Assembly (NCBI GenBank): GCA_021161255.1
Contig: JAGHAZ010000055.1
Span: 1 to 47,435, forward strand
Reading direction: 5' to 3'
Source of the DNA: Candidatus Bathyarchaeota archaeon
GTDB taxonomy: Archaea; Thermoproteota; CALKCG01; B24
Length of the DNA stretch: 47,435 bases
In this document: positions 12,362 through 40,563 of the stretch, piece by piece
Layout of the letters: every line of letters starts with the position of its first letter
Position numbering within the stretch: position 1 is the stretch's first letter
Notes under the pieces: model-generated
Databases searched by the model: none
What the model saw: the letters and a program-made list of their open reading frames with translations, nothing else
What the model was told of the DNA's origin: nothing
Program-made: the position numbers and the translations under genes

Positions 12362-12428
12362 AGGTGATAGGAGTCGGTGTCCTTTTTCAACCTCGCACTA
12401 GATGATATATTCACCACCCCTATTTTCT

Positions 12429-12441
12429 CCATGATAAATTA
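12429..12441 (+). repeat. Partial copy of the CCATGATAAATTA element
   Basis: CCATGATAAATTA appears here, preceded by a T-rich run, as in the 29-nt element shared by 34624-34652 and 40535-40563. Only the left half matches; the palindromic right half is absent. It lies about 140 bases upstream of the YrdC-type gene. A TATA-like TTTATA occurs at about 12472-12477. Confidence 0.45.
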
Positions 12442-12578
12442 TCGTCATAGACGGACAAAATTGTTCGCTGATTTATAAACAAAAATTTTCCAGTGGCGAT
12501 AGAGATTTTTTATCCAATAGAATATATGCAAAGTGGGAGAAGCCGAGGGAGTTTAAGGAGGCTCTGGGAGGAGGCGGT

Positions 12579-34623: not shown

Positions 34624-34652
34624 ATTACCTCGGGTAATTTATCATGGAAAAA
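34624..34652 (-). promoter_or_regulatory. 29-nt shared element, copy 1 (palindrome plus CCATGATAAATT)
   Basis: On the minus strand this reads a T-run, CCATGATAAATT, then ACCCGAGGTAAT. The arms ATTACC and GGTAAT around CGA are palindromic. The same 29 bases occur at 40535-40563 on the plus strand. Relative to the downstream gene the orientation is the same at both sites. Here it lies about 50 bases upstream of the TATA box. Confidence 0.65.
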
Positions 34653-34700
34653 ACCTAGAGGGGAGGAGGACGGCGACGACCCTACACAGGCATAGAAATA

Positions 34701-35774
34701 TCAACCCAGGTAATTTCTGGTGAAGAATAGTGGATGAGGTTTAAACGTTAGGGATCTTCCTACGATCAGAACCCATGGGGCCTCTACCTCTTCGACCCTC
34801 CACTTCGGTTTTACGAAGCTCTCCTCGACCTTGAGGGTTAGGCCGCTTTCGTATGCTAAGATCCCGGTCCAGGCTATCATGACGCCGTTATCTGTCGCAT
34901 ACCTCGGTGGAACGACGTGTAGGGTGGCGTCGTGAAGCCTAACCATGCTCTCAAGCATCTCCCTTATACGCTTGTTACGGGCAAACCCCCCGGTTAGGAG
35001 AAGCTCGCGTTTACCCGTCTGAGCTAGCCCCCTCTCAGCTACCTCGACGACCATGGCTAAACCCGTCTCCTGAAGACTATAACACAGGTCCTCCAAAGAA
35101 ACACCTCCTTCCCTAAATTTCCTCAACGCAGCCGTGAGTAGGCCTGAAAACTGGAGGTCCATACCCTTGACCGTGTAGGGGAGGGGTATGTAGCTCCTAC
35201 CCTTCTCAGCCACCCTGTCGAAAGCCGGACCAGGCCAGGGGCTTTCAGGGTCGACTATCCCGACCTCCCTAGCGAACACGTCTATGCAGTTCGCCAACGT
35301 TATGTCGAGCGTCTCGCCGAAGACGCGGTAGCGTCCATCCTCGTAGCCTAGAAGCTGCGTAGTACCGCCGCTTAGGATCAGTATAAGCGGGTCTTCTGCC
35401 CCAGTTATAAGCTTACCGACCTCTATATGGGCGACCAGATGGTTAACGCCTACCAGGGGCTTATCGAGGTATACCGCTAAAGCCCTAGCCACCGTAGCCG
35501 CGGTCCTTAGACAAGGCCCTAGACCCGGCCCCTGCGAGAACGCTACGACATCTATATCCTTAGGCTCTACACACGCCTTCTCCAAAGCCTCCTTAAGGAC
35601 CTTGGCGGCGACCCTACTGTGGTGCTGCGACGCCTCCCTAGGGTGTATACCCCTCCCAGACGGGGGGATATACGACGATTTAGCCTCGCCGAGTATCTCA
35701 CCGTCAGACGAGACGATCCCCACCCCGAAGGTGTGGGCTGTGCCCTCTATACCGAGGCATAGAAGCTTCTTCAT
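34701..35774 (-). CDS. kae1: tRNA threonylcarbamoyladenosine biosynthesis protein Kae1
   Basis: A 357-residue KEOPS subunit that transfers the threonylcarbamoyl group to A37 of tRNA. It has the ASKHA fold: LCLGIEGTAHTFGVG, HPREASQHH, FSQGPGLGPCLRTA, metal-binding VNHLVAHIEVG (H112, H116), LILSGGTTQLLGY and LLTGGFARNKRIREM. It stands alone, without the fused Bud32 kinase domain seen in some archaea. The start is ATG at 35774, ten codons inside a longer frame, because the family starts there. It is divergent from the UroD-like gene. YrdC and Pcc1 genes in this window serve the same pathway. Confidence 0.97.
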   Translation of the reverse strand: MKKLLCLGIEGTAHTFGVGIVSSDGEILGEAKSSYIPPSGRGIHPREASQHHSRVAAKVLKEALEKACVEPKDIDVVAFSQGPGLGPCLRTAATVARALAVYLDKPLVGVNHLVAHIEVGKLITGAEDPLILILSGGTTQLLGYEDGRYRVFGETLDITLANCIDVFAREVGIVDPESPWPGPAFDRVAEKGRSYIPLPYTVKGMDLQFSGLLTAALRKFREGGVSLEDLCYSLQETGLAMVVEVAERGLAQTGKRELLLTGGFARNKRIREMLESMVRLHDATLHVVPPRYATDNGVMIAWTGILAYESGLTLKVEESFVKPKWRVEEVEAPWVLIVGRSLTFKPHPLFFTRNYLG

Positions 35775-35808
35775 ATGTTTCCGAGAGGGAAAGCTAGGTC
35801 TCATCCGA

Positions 35809-35828
35809 TTTAAACGTTAAAGTTTAAA
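35809..35828. promoter_or_regulatory. Palindromic divergent promoter with AAACGTTA
   Basis: TTTAAAC (35809-35815) and GTTTAAA (35822-35828) form a 7-bp inverted repeat around GTTAAA, and the junction contains AAACGTTA at 35812-35819. It lies about 35 bases before the kae1 start on the minus strand, so it probably includes that gene's TATA box, and may also influence the UroD-like gene on the plus strand. Confidence 0.5.
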
Positions 35829-35891
35829 AGATGAACCCACGGCATTACCGGGTGTATCTTCATCGATTCATCAAGCCATGGAGGTGCCGAC

Positions 35892-37013
35892 TTGACTCTG
35901 ATAAATCCATCTCTCAAGCTCGATATGCGTGAAAGGTTTCTGAGGGTCTACAGGTACATGGAGGTCGACCATATACCGGACGTGGAGTTCGGATACTGGG
36001 ACGCTACCCTGCTCAGATGGCACCGTGAAGGACTACCCAGCTGGGTTACCGACAACCGTAAGGCCGATGAATATTTCGGCTTCGAAGCCTGGTACTGGTT
36101 TAAGGTCCCGGTGATAATACCGTTCAAGCCGTTCGAGGAGAGGATCCTCGAAGACCGCGGTGAAACGGTGTTGAAGATCGACAGCCGCGGGGTTGTATGT
36201 CTCGATTTTAAGAACCCTAGGTATGGTACTTCGATCCCGAAGTTTGTGAGCTTCCCGGTTAAAGACTGGGATAGCTGGGAGTCCTACAAGGAGCGGTTCG
36301 ACCTAGACGGGATAAGGCTTCCGAGTAACTGGGAGTCTCTGAAAGCAGAGTTCGAGAACCGCGACTACCCGCTAGGCGTCGACGCGGGTGGATACTTCGG
36401 GTGGGCTAGAGACCTTATGGGTCTAGAGGCGTTGTGCAAGGCCTTCTACACGCAGCCCGAGCTTGTTAGGGACATGTTCGAGTTCCGGACCGAGATGGCT
36501 CTCAGAGCACTTAGGCTCGTCCTGAAAGAGGTTAAGGTCGACTACGCTAGCTGGTGGGAGGACATGTGCTACAACCGTGGGCCGCTGATATCTCCACGGT
36601 TATTCAGGGAGTTCATGGTTCCGCAATACAAGCGTGTGACCGGGCTTCTCAGGGAGCATGGGTGCTGGCTGAACATAGTCGACTGCGACGGAGATATAAG
36701 ACAGCTCATACCGCTGTGGCTTGAAGCCGGTATAAACTGCTTCTTCCCCCTAGAGGTCAGGGCAGGCTCAGACCCGGTGGCGATCAGAGAGCAGTACGGG
36801 CGTAAAGCCCTCCTCATGGGTGGGGTAGATAAAACGGCTTTGATCAGGGGCGGTAAAGCCATAGACGAGGAGCTTAGACGAGTTAAACCCGTCGTCGAAG
36901 ACGGAGGGTATATACCGCATGTAGACCATAGGGTTCCGGCAGACGTATCCTATGAAAACTACCTATATTACCTTAAAAAGAAGAGGCGGCTTATAGGAGT
37001 CTACAGGAGCTAA
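35892..37013 (+). CDS. Uroporphyrinogen decarboxylase-like (UroD/MtaA superfamily) protein
   Basis: A 373-residue TIM-barrel protein of the UroD superfamily. Recognisable are the amino-terminal RERFLRVYRYMEVDHIPD, central YASWWEDMCYNRGPLISPRLF and HGCWLNIVDCDGDIRQLIP with an H-x-C pair resembling the zinc sites of MtaA-type methyltransferases, then LMGGVDKTAL. Haem synthesis is unlikely, because no other haem genes are near and it sits among sugar genes. A corrinoid- or methyl-transfer role is possible but no corrinoid protein is adjacent. TTG start, GGAGGTGC upstream. Confidence 0.8.
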   Translation: MTLINPSLKLDMRERFLRVYRYMEVDHIPDVEFGYWDATLLRWHREGLPSWVTDNRKADEYFGFEAWYWFKVPVIIPFKPFEERILEDRGETVLKIDSRGVVCLDFKNPRYGTSIPKFVSFPVKDWDSWESYKERFDLDGIRLPSNWESLKAEFENRDYPLGVDAGGYFGWARDLMGLEALCKAFYTQPELVRDMFEFRTEMALRALRLVLKEVKVDYASWWEDMCYNRGPLISPRLFREFMVPQYKRVTGLLREHGCWLNIVDCDGDIRQLIPLWLEAGINCFFPLEVRAGSDPVAIREQYGRKALLMGGVDKTALIRGGKAIDEELRRVKPVVEDGGYIPHVDHRVPADVSYENYLYYLKKKRRLIGVYRS

Positions 37014-37017
37014 CTGG

Positions 37018-37167
37018 ATGAAGCTGTCCCGCCTGTTAAGAGGTCCGACGAGCTTCTTCGATACTGTCAGAGGGGAGGATTGGAGACCGGCTTTCAAATT
37101 CTTCCTAAAAATCACGGCGACCCTAACGGCTTTAGGAGGACCAACATTTAAGCCGCTAAAGCGATAG
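37018..37167 (+). pseudogene. Truncated Yip1-family membrane protein remnant
   Basis: A 49-residue open frame starting with ATG 37018 four bases after the UroD-like stop. MKLSRLLRGPTSFFDTVRG and EDWRPAFKFFLKITATLTAL resemble the N terminus of archaeal Yip1-family membrane proteins, whose normal length is around 200. The rest, with its helices, is missing and the frame ends just before the next gene. It is best read as a leftover of a deleted gene, although a short translated peptide is possible. Confidence 0.55.
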
Positions 37168-37177
37168 ATGCCTCTAT

Positions 37178-38227
37178 GTGAAGCTTAAGGTCGGTGTCGT
37201 GGGTTTAAGACGCGGTAGAGTCTACGTGGATGTTTTCAAACGTCTCCCCGAAACCGAGGTCGTCGCCGTTTGCGACCTCGACCGGTCCCTAGCCGAGGGG
37301 GTGGCTCAGGAGTTTAAGGTCCCCGCCTACTTCACGGATTACAGGGATATGCTCGACCATGGGGTCGACGTCGCCGTTGTATGCACACCCGCACCCCTGC
37401 ATGCGGTTCAGTCGATAGAGGCCATGAAGAGAGGGATCCACGTCTTATCTGAGGTCCCGGCTGCCTACACGCTAGAGGAGTGCTCTCAGCTAGCCGAGAC
37501 GGTCGAGAAGACCGGTGTGAAGTATATGATGGCTGAAAACTACATATTCCTCCCCTATGTGGAGACCATAAGCCGGGTCGTTAACGGCGGTCTGATAGGT
37601 AGCCCCATCTACGTGGAGGGTGAATATGTCCACGACTGCCGTTACCTCATGAGGGACGATAAGGGTGGGCTTACGTGGAGGGCTAGGCTTCCACCGATCC
37701 AATACTGTACGCACAACCTCGGACCCATATTACGCATCCTAGACGATAGGTGTAAGATAGCCGTGGGTATGCACACAGGCTGCAACGTGGCGCCGGAGCT
37801 AAAGGCCATAGACCTTGAAGTAGGGCTTTTCAAAACCGTTAAAGGCGTGGTCGTTAAGGTTCTAAACGGTTTCTCAGTAGCCAGGGAGCCCATGCTAGTC
37901 TGGCTCGTCGTCTACGGTACCAAAGGCGTGGTCGAGGCGCCGAGGTGTGGATGGGACGGCTTCAAGCTCTACGTCGAAGCTCTCGGCATGGGCGACATGG
38001 CTAGGATAAGCCCCTCAATCCGTTATAGGGCGCCTGAGGTACCTGGGGGACACGGCTCGAGCGAGTACATCCTCGCCAGAGGGTTCGTCAGAAGCATCCT
38101 AGAAGACTACAAGCCTCCGATAGACGTCTACGAGGCTCTAGACTACACGGCGCCGGGTATATGCGCCCACCTATCCGCTGAGATGGGTGGAAGACCGGTC
38201 GAGGTCCCTGACTTCAGGAAAACCTAG
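37178..38227 (+). CDS. Gfo/Idh/MocA-family oxidoreductase
   Basis: A 349-residue NAD(P)-dependent sugar or sugar-acid dehydrogenase type. The glycine motif is degenerate (VGVVGLRRGRV), but VVCTPAPLHA, SEVPAAYTLEE in place of EKP, and YMMAENYIFLPY follow. The C-terminal substrate domain contains YCTHNLGPILRIL. The missing EKP lysine means it may not use the canonical catalytic pair. GTG start; TATA-like ACATTTAAG about 30 bases upstream. It forms a likely operon with the NagA-like gene downstream (64-base gap). Confidence 0.88.
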   Translation: MKLKVGVVGLRRGRVYVDVFKRLPETEVVAVCDLDRSLAEGVAQEFKVPAYFTDYRDMLDHGVDVAVVCTPAPLHAVQSIEAMKRGIHVLSEVPAAYTLEECSQLAETVEKTGVKYMMAENYIFLPYVETISRVVNGGLIGSPIYVEGEYVHDCRYLMRDDKGGLTWRARLPPIQYCTHNLGPILRILDDRCKIAVGMHTGCNVAPELKAIDLEVGLFKTVKGVVVKVLNGFSVAREPMLVWLVVYGTKGVVEAPRCGWDGFKLYVEALGMGDMARISPSIRYRAPEVPGGHGSSEYILARGFVRSILEDYKPPIDVYEALDYTAPGICAHLSAEMGGRPVEVPDFRKT

Positions 38228-38291
38228 CCCCCTCGCCTCCGGGGCAAAATCCTTTTAGACCCCGTAGCCCCCTACTCAGGTCGGTGAAACG

Positions 38292-39578
38292 TTGTCTCTG
38301 ATCCTCAAAAACGGTCTGGTAGTCACCCCTAAGGGGGTCTTCAAGAGGGATATCGCGGTCAGGGACGGCTACATAGCCGAGGTAAGCCCCTCGATAGAGG
38401 CTAGGGGGGAGGTTCTAGACTGCGACGGATGCTACGTCGTCCCAGGGTTTAGGGAGCAACATATGCACGACATAAACGGGCTGACCAAGCACCCAGACGA
38501 CCCCGGGAGGGTGGGGAGGGTCGCCAAGGCCCTGATAGCCCACGGCGTCACGGCCTTCAACCTGGCCACGAGCGCCATGCCGATGGAGGAGCTGCTGACC
38601 TATCTTGAGACTTGTAAGGCGTATATGGGATCCGAGGAGAACGGTGTGGAAGGTGCGAGGCTTGAAGGCGCATACGTGGAGGGTACGTTCATAAACAGGG
38701 CTTGCGCAGGAGCTCAGCCTCCAGACTTCATAGTTCACCCAGACGAGCCTGAAGCCAAAGATATGCTGGACTCTATGCTCGAGACCGGGGCTGTTAAGCT
38801 TGTGAACATCGTCCCAGACTTCGGGACTGAGCTCATAGCTTACGCGGTCTCCAAGGGGGTTATAGTCGGCTGCGGCCACACGAGAGCCTCGGCTAGGCTC
38901 GTCGAGGAGGCCTTCGGCAAGGGGTTGAGATTTATAGTTCACATGACTAACGGAGCTATGGGTCAGTCCTTCAAACCCTTCGACGGGGGTGGAGCCTATG
39001 AGGCTGCTTTAACGCTCCCCCTCTATGTCGAGCTTATAACAGACGGCTACCACGTCGACTTCAGGTACGTCTCCGATATAATCGAGAGGAGGATTCAGAA
39101 GGGTCGTATGCACGAGGTCGTAGCGGTGACGGATCAGGCTTTCCCGATAAGGAGCGAAATCCCCAGAGGCGAGTTCAGGTTCTTCTCGACCGTATGCTTC
39201 AAGCATCCGACCGAAGAAGTGCTCGTGACCAGGGGCTACCTCGACGAGTCTGGAGCCGTTAGACCTGTTCCGCCGAACACGCTGTGTTCAAGCCTGCTGA
39301 CCATGGACCGGGCCTTCCAGAACTTGGTCAACATGTTCACGGTGAGGCATTCGGGTTTCATGATCGACGTCGAGGCCCGGAGCCTAGAAGAGGCTGTGTG
39401 GATTACTTCGCAGTTCACCTCGACTAACTCGGCTAGGCTGGAGGGTTTAGCCGACAGGGGAGTCGTAGAGGAGGGTAAGCTTGCGGACCTAACCGTGCTG
39501 AGGGTCGAGGGCGAGCCTGGCTGCTATAAGGTTAAGGTGGAGGCAACCGTAGTCGGAGGGAACCTATTCAGACTCTAA
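38292..39578 (+). CDS. N-acetylglucosamine-6-phosphate deacetylase-like amidohydrolase
   Basis: A 428-residue amidohydrolase most like NagA. Metal and substrate residues appear as the QHMHDING site in place of the usual HxHG, YVEGTFINRACAGAQ (usual LEGPF-N...KGAH site), GCGHTRAS and HMTNGAMG, and DGYHVD. VTDQAF stands where the catalytic Asp is (usually TDA). NagA removes the acetyl group from GlcNAc-6-phosphate, but related enzymes deacylate other sugars, so the substrate is open. TTG start, GGTGA upstream. Confidence 0.82.
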   Translation: MSLILKNGLVVTPKGVFKRDIAVRDGYIAEVSPSIEARGEVLDCDGCYVVPGFREQHMHDINGLTKHPDDPGRVGRVAKALIAHGVTAFNLATSAMPMEELLTYLETCKAYMGSEENGVEGARLEGAYVEGTFINRACAGAQPPDFIVHPDEPEAKDMLDSMLETGAVKLVNIVPDFGTELIAYAVSKGVIVGCGHTRASARLVEEAFGKGLRFIVHMTNGAMGQSFKPFDGGGAYEAALTLPLYVELITDGYHVDFRYVSDIIERRIQKGRMHEVVAVTDQAFPIRSEIPRGEFRFFSTVCFKHPTEEVLVTRGYLDESGAVRPVPPNTLCSSLLTMDRAFQNLVNMFTVRHSGFMIDVEARSLEEAVWITSQFTSTNSARLEGLADRGVVEEGKLADLTVLRVEGEPGCYKVKVEATVVGGNLFRL

Positions 39579-39653
39579 CCTTATGCGTTACCTTTAAGAA
39601 TGGTCTCTACATTAGTGAAAGAGCGTAGTCCCTGTGAGGGAGGTCGTAAAGGT

Positions 39654-40454
39654 TTGCGTCTTAAACCTGTCGAAGAGGTCGACGTCACGAAAGCCATAGT
39701 CGAGGCGGCCACTGAGAGGCTCAGAGACATAGCTGAGGTGGACGTGGTAGTCGTAGGAGCGGGGCCGTCAGGCCTCACGGCGGCTAGGTACCTGGTCTCG
39801 AAGGGCTTCAAGACGGTCGTCTTGGAGCGTAGGCTCACGTTCGGCGGCGGTATAGGAGGTGGGGGTATACAGCTTCCCGCGGTGGTCGTTCAAGAGCCGG
39901 CTGACGCTTTACTCAGAGAAGTGGGGTGTCGGCTTACTCCATACCGCTTCCGGAGGCATCTATACCTCGTAGACCCGGCTGAGATGATGGCTAAGCTGGC
40001 GACTGCGGCCATAGACGCAGGTGCCAAGATAATCCTAGGTATGACTGTCGAGGACCTGGTCTTCAGAGCGGTTGACGGTAAGCCTAGGATTAAAGGGGTA
40101 GTCGTTCAGTGGAGCTCCATAGTGTTGTCAGGTCTACACGTAGACCCGATAGCCTTGAAATCCGACGCCGTGGTCGACTGTACAGGGCATGAAGCCGAAG
40201 TCTTAACGTTGGCCGCTAAGAAGATACCTTCTCTGGGCATCGAGGTCAAGGGTGAATCCTCCATGTGGGCTTCGAAAGGTGAGGAGCTTGTCGTTGAAAA
40301 AACAGGCGAGGTTTGTCCTGGGCTTTACGCCGCGGGGATGGCGGTCGCCGCGTTGTATGGGTTACCGAGGATGGGGCCGATATTCGGCGGGATGCTGTTG
40401 TCTGGTAAGAAGATAGCCGACGTGATAGAGTCTGCGCTTAAAAGAGGCTCTTAA
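39654..40454 (+). CDS. thi4: Thiazole synthase Thi4 (sulfide-dependent, archaeal)
   Basis: A 266-residue FAD-fold thiamine thiazole synthase making the ADP-thiazole from NAD and glycine. VVVVGAGPSGLTAARYL is the dinucleotide loop and TFGGGIGGGG follows. The residue where the yeast suicide enzyme has its sulfur-donating cysteine is here a histidine (H162, in SGLHVDP), so the enzyme should take sulfide from solution and turn over catalytically, as known for methanogen Thi4. TTG at 39654 is chosen because GGAGGT lies nine bases upstream and the length then matches the family; an ATG 54 bases earlier is open. TATA-like TTTAAGAA is at about 39593. Confidence 0.93.
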   Translation: MRLKPVEEVDVTKAIVEAATERLRDIAEVDVVVVGAGPSGLTAARYLVSKGFKTVVLERRLTFGGGIGGGGIQLPAVVVQEPADALLREVGCRLTPYRFRRHLYLVDPAEMMAKLATAAIDAGAKIILGMTVEDLVFRAVDGKPRIKGVVVQWSSIVLSGLHVDPIALKSDAVVDCTGHEAEVLTLAAKKIPSLGIEVKGESSMWASKGEELVVEKTGEVCPGLYAAGMAVAALYGLPRMGPIFGGMLLSGKKIADVIESALKRGS

Positions 40455-40534
40455 ACCCTTCGTATCCTCTCGGATATTATCATCCTTGATATTTTCATGC
40501 GTGTTAGGAGGTGTGGAGTGTCCCCCCTCTATAG

Positions 40535-40563
40535 TTTTTCCATGATAAATTACCCGAGGTAAT
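40535..40563 (+). promoter_or_regulatory. 29-nt shared element, copy 2
   Basis: Identical over 29 bases to the minus-strand copy at 34624-34652, with CCATGATAAATT followed by a palindrome whose arms AAATTACC and GGTAATTT flank CGA at this site. It lies about 15-20 bases upstream of a TATA-like TTAATATA (about 40580-40587) and 45 bases from the CBS gene start at 40608. The position fits activator or repressor binding next to a core promoter. Confidence 0.65.

Follow-up and report, generated by a model that had tools for sequence, protein, structure and literature searches.

A dispersed intergenic repeat in a genus of Bathyarchaeia and a probable inversion between two of its copies

The window analysed here is a 47,435-nucleotide stretch of DNA which corresponds to one contig (C55) of a draft Candidatus Bathyarchaeota genome (G000; 1.67 Mb, 95.6% complete). 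Within it, a block of genes comprising kae1, a URO-D-like gene, a Gfo/Idh gene, an amidohydrolase gene and thi4 is flanked by a UxaC-like gene and a CBS-domain gene, and each junction carries a copy (designated a and b, respectively) of the 29-nt sequence TTTTTCCATGATAAATTACCCGAGGTAAT, at 34624-34652 on the minus strand and 40535-40563 on the plus strand. This identity, first described in a sequence-only reading of the window, was re-derived and found to be exact and non-extendable on either side, and the ATTACC-CGA-GGTAAT palindrome described with it was likewise correct. It cannot be a product of chance, the 24-nt 3′ part of the 29-mer having returned no matches in 100 dinucleotide shuffles with three mismatches allowed. 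To the left of the 29-mer, hereafter termed the R core, copies a and b are still alike across a weaker, gapped region of approximately 60 nt. The features of the window are as follows.

34624-34652, minus strand: R core of copy a, TTTTTCCATGATAA followed by the palindrome ATTACCCGAGGTAAT (34624-34638), its right flank leading to the UxaC-like gene
34653-34714, minus strand: left part of copy a, with the left palindrome ATTACCTGGGTTGAT (34700-34714), TTTCTATGC, a variable C-rich linker, the CCCCTCTAGG box and the sixth T of the T-run
34653-40534, no strand: block between the R cores, carrying the five genes from kae1 to thi4; in the opposite orientation in the sister species B24
40476-40534, plus strand: left part of copy b, with the degenerate left palindrome ATTATCATCCTTGAT (40476-40490), TTTTCATGC, a diverged linker and CCCCCTCTATAG
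40535-40563, plus strand: R core of copy b, with its palindrome at 40549-40563, its right flank leading to the CBS-domain gene
12412-12443, plus strand: weak partial match to the R core, TTTCTCCATGATAAATTATC, without the palindrome (E 0.014), possibly a decayed copy or a chance match

The 29-mer is almost certainly the conserved right end of a dispersed, non-coding intergenic repeat of approximately 85 to 105 bp, as evidenced by pattern, model and DNA searches of the window genome and of Candidatus Bathyarchaeota archaeon B24 (G001; 90% complete), a sister species of the same genus. A whole-element sequence model identified approximately 21 clear loci in G000 and 18 in B24, while exact matches to ATTACCnnnGGTAAT numbered 16 and 15, respectively, with none in five other genomes of the class; the 20-mer TTTTTCCATGATAAATTACC, with up to three mismatches, was present 21 times in G000 and 14 times in B24, with no control matches. 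In the sister genus, the sequence model returned weak, decayed matches, the clearest of which is located on contig C143 of G003 (CCCTCCCCCTATCAAAAATCCATGCTAAATTACCTAAGGGTAAT). The exact core was found in B24 alone in a scan of 84,980 species, in which each species was represented by one genome and the closest relatives of the window genome were possibly left out. Within the public collections scanned, the repeat is specific to one genus of Bathyarchaeia, with traces in its sister genus. Viral, phage and plasmid collections contained no matches to the element, and an origin from any of these was therefore rejected.

A full element starts with a left site, in which an imperfect palindrome precedes CTATG, continues through a variable linker and closes with the R core. 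The linker comprises approximately 25 variable nucleotides and the C-rich CCCCTCTAGG box, the right part of the element thus reading CCCCTCTAGG-TTTTT-CCATGATAA-ATTACCnnnGGTAAT, with the R core corresponding to TTTTTCCATGATAA plus ATTACCnnnGGTAAT. When reversed, the R core (palindrome plus TTATCATGG) resembles the left site (palindrome plus TTTCTATGC/G), and the element ends are therefore terminal inverted repeats, albeit imperfect ones, one end being strict and the other degenerate. Two subtypes were distinguished, in which the left palindrome starts 59 to 64 nt or 43 to 51 nt upstream of the T-run, representing a shift of the left site by about one helical turn; an additional subtype in B24 carries AGAAAG/AAAATG in place of the T-run. 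Copies differ in the centre of the palindrome, some have a degenerate left site or lack it, and certain copies retain the R core alone.

Comparison with the sister genus revealed junctions at which the element appears to have been inserted. The convergent IleRS and DUF5655 genes, whose stop codons lie 1 to 2 bp apart in G002 and which closely abut in G003, are separated in G000 and B24 by 167 bp harbouring the element, while kae1 and the UxaC-like gene are approximately 45 bp apart in G003 with no element between them. Because both junctions are empty in the sister genus, it is likely that the element was inserted after the two genera split, loss from the sister genus being the formal alternative; no outgroup carrying the IleRS/DUF5655 junction was found. 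The extra stretch at IleRS (165 bp) exceeds the recognizable element of approximately 85 bp, and the latter may thus not represent the true unit length. These comparisons display presence and absence between sequences too diverged to delimit the element ends or a target-site duplication. Against B24, empty sites were sought over a stretch that excluded the L082 and L085 flanks and half of the surroundings of L081, namely one of its two sides; a 362-bp gap at L080/L091 resembles a deletion in B24, unlike a clean empty site.

Once in place, the R core has evolved more slowly than its surroundings and thus appears to be under selection. Across nine orthologous copies, differences amounted to 6 of 359 positions in the 40-bp R core versus 97 of 1,645 in the linker, left site and flanks (p = 0.0002), and exclusion of the most divergent pair left 2 of 319 versus 48 of 1,488 (p = 0.004). 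Within one genome, linkers differ greatly among copies while R cores are nearly identical; since recently copied selfish repeats would be expected to have linkers in common, it seems that the R core is being preserved in situ. No Rfam match and no covarying base pairs (RNAalifold) were obtained for the element, and single-strand folding was no better than that of shuffled sequences for most copies; two of 12 folded better (z of -3.0 and -2.4), without pairing between the left and right ends. A reading as RNA was rejected on these grounds, in favour of a site in duplex DNA that a dimeric protein would recognize. We consider the R core to be probably a selected site for a putative sequence-specific and most likely dimeric DNA-binding protein.

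The alternative that the element is a selfish repeat resembling MITEs or REPINs, without host function and with its R core kept by a past mobilizing enzyme and by gene conversion among copies, accounts for the insertion-like junctions, the inverted ends, the subtypes, the decayed and left-less copies and the gene conversion between the two window copies described below. It is nevertheless regarded as unlikely, as linkers differ strongly among copies where R cores do not, and as R cores have remained conserved between orthologues after insertion. Furthermore, no Y1 transposase (RAYT, PF01797) was detected in G000 or B24 by a search which found this family in five of 14 control genomes. G002 encodes two Y1 transposases, which lack matching ends, and mobilization by an IS200/605 or RAYT system was rejected on the basis of both observations. 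No mobilizing or recombining enzyme linked to the repeat was found, and no recent transposition event was detected. A more elaborate form of the selected-site reading, in which the R core would be a genus-wide site for a putative chromosome-organizing or boundary protein at approximately 20 intergenic positions, CRISPR trailer ends included, and the two-site geometry would reflect a looped or wrapped complex that also influences chromosome rearrangement, is quite unlikely.

The sequence-only reading had further remarked that copies a and b form inverted repeats around the 5.9-kb block without a transposase, a description which was borne out and which can be extended, as B24 carries the block between these repeats in inverted orientation. 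There, the counterparts of copies a and b are separated by 5.98 kb, and the intervening block is flipped relative to its flanks, producing the junctions kae1/CBS and thi4/UxaC in place of kae1/UxaC and thi4/CBS in G000, with the breakpoints located within the repeat copies. An inversion between the two copies thus very probably separates these sister species. The gene order kae1-UxaC-rps24-ThrRS in G003 is that of G000, indicating that the kae1-UxaC adjacency is ancestral and the B24 order derived. Whole-copy identity between the two window copies is 81 of 81 aligned bases in B24 versus 59 of 79 in G000, and that of their linkers 52 of 52 versus 30 of 49, while in both species the length of the T-run (six or five) follows the outer flank. 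At face value, the homogenized linker and the behaviour of the T-run place the exchange to the left of the T-run and indicate that the thi4-side linker was converted to the kae1-side type, the exact position of the crossover being uncertain because homopolymer lengths are easily mutated. The two genomes are draft MAGs, in which repeats are prone to assembly error; small gaps still distinguish the B24 copies from each other, however, and speak against a simple assembly collapse.

Homologous recombination accompanied by gene conversion fits this inversion better than site-specific cutting by an enzyme at the palindrome. A recombinase site which flips the segment between inverted sites, as in phase variation, would be in keeping with inverted sites that flank an inverted segment, with breakpoints inside the element, with an R core palindrome whose short centre is reminiscent of recombinase sites, and with the differing junction partners of the element at the aldolase/vapBC locus. 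Such a mechanism is nonetheless improbable, as both the homogenized B24 linker and the association of the T-run with the outer flank indicate conversion to the left of the palindrome rather than a fixed-point crossover which spares neighbouring sequence. The palindrome centre, moreover, differs among copies, most copies are alone on their contigs, most loci common to the two species are collinear, and no recombinase gene was present among the genes examined around the elements.

Other differences between the two species were observed at element loci. A stretch of approximately 14 kb located between two genes in B24 (L107, contig C12) lies in G000 on a separate contig which ends in an element copy, while its outer flanks are joined on another G000 contig at a near-identical copy (L071/L108 on C19 and L072/L109 on C21); this stretch includes a terminase-like gene and may be provirus-related, and strain variation is a possible source of the difference. 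The neighbours of an aldolase-side element also differ between the species (L073 on G000 C27 versus L113, L112 and L117 on B24 contigs C3, C23 and C18, respectively); scrambled vapBC fragments and a GH3 gene make up its surroundings, and the locus represents a second rearrangement near an element. At a tRNA-Glu locus, the element is present in both species with a different subtype and in opposite orientation (L076:4081 on G000 C48 and L116:2013 on B24 C8), and G000 harbours approximately 1.5 kb of unrelated sequence at this position.

All copies examined lie between reading frames of annotated size or overlap just the ends of these. In a tally made by hand on unannotated open reading frames, 17 of the 24 distinguishable R sides are turned toward a gene or CRISPR array at its 3′ end and seven toward a gene start (one-sided p = 0.03), and 3′ ends represent 30 of the 47 flanking gene ends. 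This distribution, CRISPR trailers among the 3′ ends included, would suit a transcription terminator, an insulator or an RNA element at transcript 3′ ends. Such a role is very improbable, however, since the bias is modest and would also be explained by insertions that avoid promoters, divergent gene starts flank several copies (L074 and L080), and neither the covariation analysis, the Rfam search nor the generally unremarkable folding offers support.

The sequence-only reading had interpreted the 29-mer as an element common to two promoters, that is, as a regulatory operator or promoter of a sugar regulon which includes the UxaC-like and CBS genes. Both window copies do point at a gene start (copy a toward the UxaC-like gene and copy b toward the CBS gene), and several neighbours genome-wide encode sugar enzymes. 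This proposal was not borne out and retains little credence: R sides mostly lie at 3′ ends, copies occur between convergent gene ends (IleRS/DUF5655 and GNAT/URO-D) and at CRISPR trailers, and the neighbours share no common pathway, many having no connection to sugars (an IleRS-type synthetase, HIT, GNAT, PIN toxins, a nitroreductase, a luciferase-like protein, GH3, GH116 and URO-D, among others). The genome-wide search called for in that reading returned approximately 20 further copies, mostly outside promoters, the outcome it had itself named as contrary to its proposal. Least tenable of all, to the point of being scarcely credible, is a 5.9-kb transposon bearing kae1 and sugar genes with copies a and b as its terminal inverted repeats, which the inverted copies at both ends would suggest but which was rejected because the block encodes no transposase and kae1 and UxaC are ancestrally adjacent across the left copy, so that the block is not a mobile unit, and the repeats also occur singly at approximately 20 other places.

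Every CRISPR array or remnant with a resolved trailer end was located on the R side of an element copy and in the same relative orientation, at a distance of approximately 20 to 350 bp, or of 1.2 kb with an intervening gene at L083. These loci are L085:3980-5123 (C35), L081:3998-4620 (C72) and L083:5190 (C37) in G000 and L067:4035-4260 (C8) and L060:3716-4090 (C18) in B24; a rough estimate of the probability of this association arising by chance is <1e-5 for two of two in G000. Approximately five element loci (L064/L074, L062, L072, L073/L113 and L082) adjoin VapBC-type (PIN domain) toxin-antitoxin genes, perhaps above chance.

Taken as a whole, the most plausible explanation, and one which we hold to be reasonably probable, is that of a small dispersed intergenic repeat composed of two inverted palindromic sites and a variable linker, which would owe its spread to an insertion process either extinct today or as yet unrecognized, whose R core would be kept by selection as the candidate site of a sequence-specific, probably dimeric DNA-binding protein, and whose copies are presumed to have served as passive homology for an inversion by homologous recombination and gene conversion. 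The uncultured Bathyarchaeia thereby gain a lineage-specific dispersed repeat which behaves like an insertion and is apparently also under selection, together with a case in which a probable inversion between repeat copies separates sister species. The R core (29 to 40 bp) represents a concrete bait for the putative binding protein, while the link to CRISPR trailer ends is unexplained. More generally, a striking match between two promoters can prove to be part of a genome-wide repeat.

Among known systems, inversions by homologous recombination between inverted repeats likewise flip the intervening segment, here with homogenized copies, yet the repeat in question measures only approximately 85 to 105 bp, and where the ancestral-type order is retained its two copies are perfectly identical over 29 bp. 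Bacterial REPINs or REP doublets (BIMEs) are similarly intergenic and built of a pair of inverted palindromic sites around a variable spacer, an arrangement found here in extragenic space, and they too occur as singlets. GI REPINs span 71 bp between two invariant 16-mers (PMC3116915, PMC2817692), comparable to the 75 bp that separate the palindrome centres of the longer subtype. The archaeal repeat differs in its confinement to one genus with traces in the sister genus, its mere 20 or so copies, the far better conservation of one end, the lack of a strong single-strand hairpin and the absence of a RAYT (Y1) transposase from the genomes that bear it. With MITEs (PMC10969869), it has in common its short, non-coding, dispersed and intergenic nature, its inverted ends and its presence or absence at orthologous junctions, but no target-site duplication or autonomous partner was identified (Y1 transposases being those searched for genome-wide), and the constancy of the R core contrasts with linkers whose diversity exceeds what a recent burst would leave. 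As it has neither a RAYT nor a strong hairpin, and as a placement among the MITEs would be tentative, the Bathyarchaeal element is filed as a small dispersed intergenic repeat which is anatomically nearest to REPINs and MITEs and a member of neither family.
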